From: Bacillota bacterium
Lineage (GTDB): Bacteria > Bacillota > Bacilli > Bacillales > Cytobacillaceae
DNA length: 23,959 nucleotides
NCBI GenBank assembly: GCA_030705745.1
Contig: JAUZPT010000007.1
Coordinates: 1 to 23,959 of the forward strand
Direction of reading: 5' to 3'
Made by a program: the position numbers and the translations under genes. The notes under the pieces are model-generated. The model saw only the letters and a list, made by a program, of their open reading frames with translations. It was not told the DNA's origin and did no database searches. Positions 22,051-23,932 of the stretch are shown here, piece after piece (the first letter of the stretch is position 1; every line of letters begins with the position of its first letter).

Positions 22051-22115
22051 TCATTTGTTTTATGACTTTTTCATTTGTAAAAATGCATTTTGAAATAAAG
22101 AGGTGTGAGTATAAA

Positions 22116-23588
22116 TTGTCCCAAAATGAAACCCCGCTTTTCAGCGGATTACTAGCACACGCACAAAAAAATCCCATTCAATTTCATATTCCTGGCCATA
22201 AAAAAGGCGCTGGAATGGATCCTGAATTCAGGAATTTCATCGGAGATAACGCTCTTTCAATAGACTTGATTAATATCGGTCCTCTCGATGATCTTCATCA
22301 GCCGAAAGGCATCATTAAACAAGCACAGGACTTAGCTGCAGAGGCGTTCGGTGCTGATCATACATTTTTCTCTGTCCAGGGAACAAGTGGAGCGATCATG
22401 ACAATGGTCATGGCTGTTTGCGGCCCTGGCGACAAAATCATCGTACCACGGAATGTCCATAAATCGGTCATGTCAGCTATCGTATTCTCAGGAGCGACTC
22501 CCGTTTTTATTCATCCGGATATTGATGTGAATCTCGGAATTTCCCATGGAATTTCTACAGATTCTGTTGAAAAGGCTCTTGAACAGCATCCCGATGCAAA
22601 AGGTATTCTTGTTATCAATCCAACTTACTTTGGCGTTTCTGCCGATCTAAAGAGAATTGTTGAGATTGCCCATTCCTATCAAGTCCCTGTTCTAGTAGAC
22701 GAAGCGCACGGAGTTCATATTCATTTCCATGAAGAACTTCCAATGTCAGCGATGCAGGCAGGCGCAGATATGGCTGCAACAAGCGTTCACAAGCTTGGGG
22801 GCTCTATGACCCAAAGCTCCATCCTGAACGTAAAGGAAGGGCTTGTATCCGCTAAACGCGTTCAATCCATCCTAAGTATGTTAACAACGACTTCTACTTC
22901 CTATCTTCTTCTTGCTTCTCTTGATGTCGCGAGAAGAAGATTAGTGACGGAAGGCAATCAGTTAATCGGAAAAACCATTGATTTGGCTCAGTCAATCCGT
23001 AGTCGAGTCAATAAAATCGACCATATTTACTGTGTTGGTGAAGAGATACTCGGTTCAAAGGCAGCATTTGATTACGATCCAACAAAGCTGATTATTTCCG
23101 TAAAAGATTTGGGAATGACAGGCTACGAGGTCGAAAAGTGGTTGAGAGAAAAATATAATATTGAAGTTGAAATGTCTGATTTGTACAATATTCTTTGTGT
23201 GATCACTTTGGGAGATACCGAAGTAGAAGGCAATATTTTAGTCAAAGCCTTGGAAGATCTTGCAGATGAGTGCGAACATCGAGCTGAAAAGGTTGAACCG
23301 TTAAAAGTTCTTTTGCCTGATATTCCTGTCCTTGCATTAACTCCAAGAGATGCTTTCTACGCGGAAACGGAAATCATTCCATTCGAAGAGTCTGAAGGAA
23401 GAATTATTGCCGAGTTTGTTATGGTTTATCCACCCGGAATTCCAATTTTCATCCCAGGTGAAATTATTACGAAGGAAAATCTTCATTATCTTCATGAAAA
23501 TCTTGAAGCAGGCCTTCCTGTACAAGGGCCTGAAGATGATGAACTCAAATTGATCCACGTTATTAAGGAATATAAAGCAATTAAATAA
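22116..23588 (+). CDS. speA: Arginine decarboxylase (PLP-dependent)
   Basis: This 490-residue fold-type I PLP enzyme of the Orn/Lys/Arg decarboxylase major domain converts arginine to agmatine, the first step of the agmatine route to putrescine and spermidine. I take TTG 22116 as the start: AGAGGTG lies upstream and the protein then begins Met-Ser-Gln-Asn-Glu-Thr-Pro-Leu as in B. subtilis SpeA. The longer frame from 22062 adds 18 unrelated residues. The PLP lysine is Lys226 in Ser-Val-His-Lys-Leu-Gly-Gly; Asp195-Glu-Ala-His198 contacts the cofactor; Gln-Gly-Thr-Ser-Gly-Ala (88-93) holds the phosphate. The C-terminal domain is complete (Pro-Pro-Gly-Ile-Pro-Ile-Phe-Ile-Pro-Gly-Glu). It is convergent with the SR1 RNA. 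Confidence 0.96.
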   Translation: MSQNETPLFSGLLAHAQKNPIQFHIPGHKKGAGMDPEFRNFIGDNALSIDLINIGPLDDLHQPKGIIKQAQDLAAEAFGADHTFFSVQGTSGAIMTMVMAVCGPGDKIIVPRNVHKSVMSAIVFSGATPVFIHPDIDVNLGISHGISTDSVEKALEQHPDAKGILVINPTYFGVSADLKRIVEIAHSYQVPVLVDEAHGVHIHFHEELPMSAMQAGADMAATSVHKLGGSMTQSSILNVKEGLVSAKRVQSILSMLTTTSTSYLLLASLDVARRRLVTEGNQLIGKTIDLAQSIRSRVNKIDHIYCVGEEILGSKAAFDYDPTKLIISVKDLGMTGYEVEKWLREKYNIEVEMSDLYNILCVITLGDTEVEGNILVKALEDLADECEHRAEKVEPLKVLLPDIPVLALTPRDAFYAETEIIPFEESEGRIIAEFVMVYPPGIPIFIPGEIITKENLHYLHENLEAGLPVQGPEDDELKLIHVIKEYKAIK

Positions 23589-23632
23589 CAAGGCTTTCAG
23601 ATTTGAACATTTTTCATTCTTCTGGAATTAAT

Positions 23633-23670
23633 AAAAAACAGGATTCCCTATTGCGGAATCCTGTTTTTAT
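23633..23670. terminator. Bidirectional terminator shared by speA and SR1
   Basis: A perfect 14-bp stem (23634... to 23647 with 23655-23668; AAAAACAGGATTCC) and a 7-base loop, with A and T runs on both sides. It ends speA on the plus strand and SR1 on the minus strand, so the two RNAs can be complementary through this hairpin. Confidence 0.9.
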
Positions 23671-23695
23671 CTATTTATCCAAAACCGAATTAAAA

Positions 23696-23821
23696 TTAAG
23701 CTTCCTCTTCTTGCGATTGGTGTCCACAGCATGTTGTGTTTTTTGCATAAAGTACCGTTACTTTTTCGTCTTCAAAATGATCAATAGTAGAGTTACAGGC
23801 TTGGCATACAATAGTACCCAT
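23696..23821 (-). CDS. sr1P: SR1P, GapA-binding peptide
   Basis: A 41-residue peptide starting Met-Gly-Thr-Ile-Val-Cys-Gln-Ala-Cys-Asn and continuing Phe-Glu-Asp-Glu-Lys-Val-Thr-Val-Leu-Tyr. It closely matches B. subtilis SR1P as I recall it (39 residues). Cys6-x-x-Cys9 and Cys31-Cys32 could bind zinc. SR1P binds glyceraldehyde-3-phosphate dehydrogenase GapA, stabilises gapA mRNA, and promotes the GapA-RNase J1 interaction. The ATG at 23821 has a strong AAGGGGA ribosome binding site. The C-terminus (His-Gln-Ser-Gln then four acidic/Ala residues) differs from B. subtilis. It is too short for a 60-codon ORF search and easily missed. Confidence 0.93.
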   Translation of the reverse strand: MGTIVCQACNSTIDHFEDEKVTVLYAKNTTCCGHQSQEEEA

Positions 23822-23857
23822 TATACATTCCCCTTTTCTTTTTGATGATCACAAATT

Positions 23858-23871
23858 TGAAAGCGCTTCAA
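23858..23871 (-). promoter_or_regulatory. CcpA binding site (cre) in the SR1 leader
   Basis: Minus-strand TTGAAGCGCTTTCA matches the cre consensus TGWAARCGYTWNCW in the central ARCGYT core and at 13 of 14 positions against the palindromic form. It lies about 7-20 bases downstream of the predicted start, where bound CcpA would block transcription when glucose is present. Confidence 0.7.
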
Positions 23872-23884
23872 CATCTTTAATTCC

Positions 23885-23913
23885 ATAATAATATAACACA
23901 TATATTTTTTCAA
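23885..23913 (-). promoter_or_regulatory. Sigma-A promoter of SR1
   Basis: Minus-strand TTGAAA (23908-23913), a 17-base spacer and TATTAT (23885-23890), each one base off consensus. Confidence 0.82.
23890..23900 (-). promoter_or_regulatory. CcpN operator I, abutting the -10 box of SR1
   Basis: Minus-strand TGTGTTATATT fits the CcpN consensus TRTGHYATAYW (as I recall it) at all 11 positions. It lies in the spacer, touching the -10 box. Confidence 0.68.
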
Positions 23914-23921
23914 GCCTAAAT

Positions 23922-23932
23922 TGTATAACATA
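23922..23932 (-). promoter_or_regulatory. CcpN operator II, upstream of the -35 box of SR1
   Basis: Minus-strand TATGTTATACA also fits the CcpN consensus at all 11 positions. Its centre is 32 bases (about three helical turns) from operator I, which suits cooperative binding on one DNA face. Confidence 0.68.

Follow-up and report, generated by a model that had tools for sequence, protein, structure and literature searches.

Among the small RNAs of Gram-positive bacteria, SR1 is well studied and has a dual function. The locus described here raises the question of whether its transcription answers to one sugar-responsive repressor or to two acting on the same promoter, and whether a second operator would be a trait of one genome or of SR1 at large. 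The locus lies in a 23,959-nucleotide stretch of DNA from a Bacillota bacterium of the Cytobacillaceae (assembly GCA_030705745.1, contig JAUZPT010000007.1), and this whole stretch is called the window below.

The SR1 Locus

The minus strand from 23632 to 23881 holds the gene for SR1, a small RNA already known from Bacillus, with 69.3 bits for Rfam RF02376 (gathering threshold 45). Inside it, an open reading frame at 23696..23821 (minus strand, stop codon included) encodes a small protein of 41 residues that reaches 68.5 bits for PF13790 against a cut-off of 26. On the plus strand, a speA-like Orn/Lys/Arg decarboxylase gene (22110..23588, PF01276, 394 bits; longest ATG frame from 22062) runs toward SR1 and ends at 23588. 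A preliminary description of this DNA had read the 41-codon frame as SR1P convergent with speA and had proposed the Rfam and PF13790 searches; both scored above their cut-offs and the reading stands. A bidirectional intrinsic terminator at 23634..23668, with a 14-pair stem and T tracts on each strand (−19.8 kcal/mol and z −7.3 on the SR1 strand), is probably common to SR1 and speA.

The Rfam match begins at 23881 in the window and, in the B. subtilis-type locus L130, 7 bases beyond the −10 box. By analogy with the L130 spacing, the SR1 start was placed at 23878. The predicted transcript is 247–250 nt long with its 5′ end at 23878–23881, matching the 240–250 bases expected earlier.

Homologous loci were collected at two depths. 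The named loci (Neobacillus, Mesobacillus, Cytobacillus and kin) are the best 80 of 256 relatives and lean to close kin, while the order-level loci are the 29 best new matches plus one per genus hand-picked among the matches listed. An SR1P reading frame was not found in 6 of 89 loci, two of which, L258 and L262, are 200-base filler stretches without a match. Removal of 4 duplicates from 131 rows left 127 distinct loci, and 5 of these (L241, L243–L246) had no clear promoter frame, leaving 122. SR1 loci are related by descent, and counts over them are not independent. The convergent SR1-speA arrangement is old, since a speA match faces SR1 in 76 of the 80 named loci (best 80 of 256; the other four have no match) and adjoins it in 29/29 of the order-level loci (29 best new matches).

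A search for SR1P (PF13790) across the order gave matches in 325 of 397 genomes, spread over 118 of 135 genera. A 2021 paper gives homologues in 139 species, of Bacillus and Geobacillus only (PMC8501984); renamed genera may account for part of the gap between that list and our 118 genera. Within the window's family, SR1P was absent from all 13 genomes searched of genus g20. Tandem or multiple SR1P copies also occur, with two in L246, seven matches in G503 and five in G158. Hallmarks of the SR1 family include pairing with ahrC mRNA, binding of GapA by SR1P and expression in gluconeogenesis. The window's genome has an ahrC/argR gene, and in a crude test of SR1-ahrC duplex energy, 127 of 200 shuffles did as well without the terminator and 43 of 200 with it.

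A Promoter with Twin CcpN Operators

A promoter scan placed a −35 box (TTGAAA, 23908..23913) and a −10 box (TATTAT, 23885..23890) on the minus strand, 10/12 with a 17-bp spacer, a grade about equally common in shuffles. Two predicted CcpN operators flank and fill this frame on the same strand. Operator 1, TATGTTATACA at 23922..23932, lies 8 bp upstream of the −35 box. Operator 2, TGTGTTATATT at 23890..23900, lies in the spacer and overlaps the −10 box by one base. Both match TRTGHYATAYW at 11 of 11 positions, their starts are 32 bp apart, and they are the sole exact matches in the 24-kb window; these coordinates agree with the preliminary description, which had reported two such boxes 32 bases apart, one touching −10 and one upstream of −35. 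Shuffled windows held 0.69 exact matches on average and 16 of 100 reached two, so the number of matches is weak evidence by itself. The strength of the evidence, judged from sequence, lies in the shared promoter of both predicted boxes and in the conservation of the pair. When up to two mismatches were allowed over the two boxes combined, the pair was found in 112 of the 127 distinct SR1 loci and in none in each of five shuffle rounds; the spacing was 32 bp in 75 of the 112. All 80 named loci (best 80 of 256) carry it.

In B. subtilis, the twin CcpN layout of sr1 is already known, and CcpN on the two sites holds RNA polymerase (PMC8464778). The B. subtilis literature describes CcpN as repressing at two sites via the RNA polymerase alpha subunit.

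A cre-like Site Downstream of the Start

The preliminary description had also placed a nearly ideal cre just past the start site. A likely CcpA operator was predicted at 23858..23871, a pseudo-palindrome that scores best on the plus strand as TGAAAGCGCTTCAA and covers +8 to +21 from a start at 23878 or +11 to +24 from 23881, in agreement with the claimed position. The IUPAC consensus of cre is TGWAANCGNTNWCA, which the site matches at 12 of 14 positions. The window holds 29 matches of this grade against 27.3 expected, a chance-level count that favors reading the site as a fortuitous resemblance in an AT-rich leader. Because such a match is worthless by itself, we built a matrix from 69 B. subtilis boxes with measured CcpA response (tables 3 and 4 of PMC3463425; sr1 is not among them), scoring both strands and treating the known boxes by leave-one-out. 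The window site reached 17.5 bits, the highest score in the window and more than that of 80% of the known boxes, and lies within one base of the known B. subtilis cre of yjmD. A reading of the site as poor, drawn from the IUPAC pattern and from the matrix on one strand, was reversed by scoring both strands. "Nearly ideal" thus fails by the IUPAC pattern (12/14, chance level) and holds by the matrix (17.5 bits, 80th percentile). CcpA probably binds the site and acts through it in vivo.

Recurrence across SR1 Loci

Sites were counted as being of known-cre quality from 12.6 bits upward, the 10th percentile of the known boxes. A site of this quality lay 20–38 bp past the start of CcpN operator 2 in 99 of the 122 SR1 loci whose promoter frame is clear. 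Three control windows, two of which lie in promoter sequence under constraint, gave 0/122 and a fourth 0/121, and dinucleotide-shuffled leaders gave a mean of 0.1 and a maximum of 1 over 20 rounds. The IUPAC pattern with at most two mismatches, at offsets 24–34, likewise occurred in 99 of 122 loci against 1.05 (maximum 2) in shuffles. Of these 99 sites, 24 reproduce a measured B. subtilis cre exactly and another 61 differ from one at a single base. With a site in the same position in 99 of 122 loci, where shuffles give about 0.1, a chance resemblance is very improbable, though the loci share ancestry.

The site is widespread. It was found in 71 of the 80 named loci (best 80 of 256) and, within 160 bp before the conserved SR1P motif, in 56 of 72 loci from families other than the window's, where 0.5 were expected; 24 of the 27 such families sampled have it. 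This family-level scan left out L242 and found a cre in L243–L246, which lack a clear promoter frame. The site is missing or weak in 23 of the 122 frames, including L240, L253, L216, L217 and L229. The last three belong to family f13 and have both CcpN boxes without the downstream cre, while L104–L107, L113 and L215 of the same family keep it. A cre special to the window's genome is ruled out by the 99 of 122 loci and the 24 of 27 other families. The preliminary description had suggested that this genome departs from B. subtilis through a locally stronger CcpA role, and here it does not hold, as most SR1 loci, the B. subtilis type included, have the downstream cre. Its presence in most loci points to CcpA contributing to SR1 control in general, not to a stronger role in this one genome.

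The box also lies inside the SR1 transcript, near its 5′ end, and could instead work as an RNA element of the leader, by forming a stem with the SR1P reading frame or by serving as a pairing seed at the 5′ end. In the Rfam model, the stretch is paired with SR1P codons. One orientation dominates as well: 91 of 99 boxes have their best score on the template strand, a bias not demanded by a plain palindrome, so that some further constraint may exist. Against a leader stem, box position 9 (C/T) showed no covariation with the third base of the Lys codon (Fisher p = 0.29, with a trend in the wrong direction), and the four-pair stem, the one stem examined, is complete in only 57 of 108 boxes. The variation that the box tolerates (N at position 6, mostly C/T at 9, T/A at 12) follows the degeneracy of cre, and in some families the SR1 box is a full 14/14 IUPAC cre (L236, L251 and L255). 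The distance from CcpN operator 2 to the box had a standard deviation of 6.1 bp against 13.0 for box to ATG, with boxes at offsets 12–60; the corresponding 1.6 and 14.6 bp exaggerate the difference, since boxes were then sought only at offsets 24–35. Taken together, an RNA element is unlikely, and a DNA operator remains our preferred reading of the box.

B. subtilis-type Loci and the Far Upstream Site

For B. subtilis sr1, PMC8464778 places a CcpA site about 260 bp upstream, and the CcpA effect reported in the literature is minor. For two loci in our set, the RF02376 scores are 224 bits (L119) and 221 bits (L130). Both encode a 39-residue SR1P, which we take to resemble that of B. subtilis. 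Their downstream box, at about +20, scores 15.7 bits and differs from the acuA cre at one base. Each locus has, in addition, a cre-like site of 13.7 bits farther upstream, centered at −278 in L119 and −246 in L130, and L119 has a third site at −123 (14.2 bits). We infer that the −278/−246 site is the published cre. It occurs in 2 of the 121 loci with upstream sequence (L119 and L130; the window's own locus was not counted, as only about 80 bases before its predicted start lie on the contig) and was not found in the other three B. subtilis-type loci, L124–L126. By position, three cre matches fell at −420 to −1, all in L119 or L130, 99 at 0 to +19 and one at +40 to +59. On this distribution of predicted sites, the published upstream cre is clade-limited, whereas the downstream cre is general and higher-scoring.

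Regulators and Other CcpN Targets in the Genome

The absence of a ccpN gene would have spoken against this control. The gene is present in the window's genome, in two overlapping contig-end fragments that cover residues 1–130 (contig C327, 196 bits) and 57–207 (contig C559, 202 bits) of NF053704 and are 99% identical where they overlap. Each falls below the 260-bit whole-protein cut-off, as a fragment would be expected to. In three genomes of the same genus (L098, L099, L101), a second CcpN-like protein was observed, 52–54% identical to the queried part. The genome also has a whole ccpA gene (TIGR01481, 544.5 bits against a cut-off of 442.35), and by alignment the DNA-binding domain of its product is nearly identical to that of the solved CcpA chain 3oqm. 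ccpA was searched in 4 genomes. In one of the same genus, the best match was in two pieces (G162:C1:3364743-3365734), the second with in-frame stop codons, either a broken gene or a sequencing or assembly error.

The window's genus has several ccpA-like paralogues, and operators of the LacI family share a AANCGNTT core; both would suit a box bound by another LacI-family repressor rather than CcpA. The recurrence of the box in 24 of 27 other families, in which CcpA is the regulator to be expected, and the identity of 24 SR1 boxes with known CcpA sites argue against such a repressor, which we regard as even less probable than an RNA element. CcpA thus remains the favored ligand.

In the window's genome, pckA and a GAPDH gene, taken as gapB, are also each preceded by an exact CcpN box. 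From these matches, a CcpN regulon is likely there. Across pckA loci, a CcpN box was present in 33 of 34, while neither the 32-bp pair nor an IUPAC cre 24–34 bp downstream of the box was found in any of the 34. Scored by matrix over 12–60 bp, five of the 34 (L080, L082, L281, L282 and L290) had a cre-like site of 12.7–15.3 bits, 19–23 bp past the CcpN box; L082, from the window's genome, scored 15.3 bits, and in four of the five CA replaces the central CG. In some lineages, pckA may be under both CcpN and CcpA. With these five loci, the pairing of CcpN with cre is not wholly confined to SR1. Set against 99 of 122 SR1 loci, they indicate that the constant geometry belongs to SR1, while the joining of the two kinds of site is not exclusive to it.

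Proposed Control of SR1

Taken together, these results make it quite probable that SR1 transcription is shut in sugar-rich cells by CcpN and CcpA acting on one promoter. In the presence of sugar, CcpN would occupy both of its operators, the one upstream of −35 and the other 32 bp away in the spacer, and hold polymerase at the promoter. CcpA with HPr-Ser-P would bind the cre, centered at about +14 to +20 in the initially transcribed region, and block polymerase binding or escape. Without sugar, both would leave, and SR1 and SR1P would be made. A cre near the start site contributes to strong regulation, according to PMC3463425. The preliminary description had called the arrangement a double glycolytic lock. 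By sequence, that idea gains ground as a general feature of SR1 and loses it as a trait peculiar to this genome.

The identity of SR1 and the twin CcpN sites were already known; the downstream cre is the new part. No description of a downstream sr1 cre was found in the SR1 and CcpA literature covered, including passages of PMC8501984, PMC7430163, PMC8464778, PMC10448178 and PMC3463425. We lean, with modest confidence, toward a broader reading. In it, the start-proximal cre (about +8 to +24) would be the ancestral CcpA operator of sr1 and also the main one throughout the order, in B. subtilis too, and the site near −260 would have been added late and within one clade. Together with the twin CcpN sites, the promoter would then join two unlike sugar sensors, CcpN (ATP, pH) and CcpA (HPr-Ser-P). 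If the downstream cre works, the present account, with CcpN acting mainly and CcpA weakly from a distant upstream site, overlooks an operator that is conserved, and the slight effect of CcpA in B. subtilis may mean that CcpA is masked by CcpN, not that it is unimportant. Lineages without the cre, such as L216, L217 and L229, offer a ready comparison.

Comparison with Known Systems

The locus shares with SR1/SR1P of B. subtilis the RNA family, the small protein, the convergence with speA and two CcpN sites, of which the first precedes the −35 box and the second lies within the spacer. It differs in the length of SR1P, 41 residues against 39, and in its strong predicted cre at +8 to +24, on a contig with about 80 upstream bases, where the B. 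subtilis literature covered gives a CcpA site about 260 bp upstream. The CcpN targets gapB and pckA resemble SR1 in having an exact CcpN box upstream in the window's genome. pckA differs in lacking the 32-bp pair (0 of 34 loci) and in the frequency of a cre-like site, 5 of 34 against 99 of 122. The start-proximal cre sites of acuA, dctP, bglP, sigL and acsA (PMC3463425) are like that of SR1 in their position at the start site and in the presence of an encoded CcpA. Unlike them, the SR1 cre is joined with two CcpN operators on the promoter of a small RNA.
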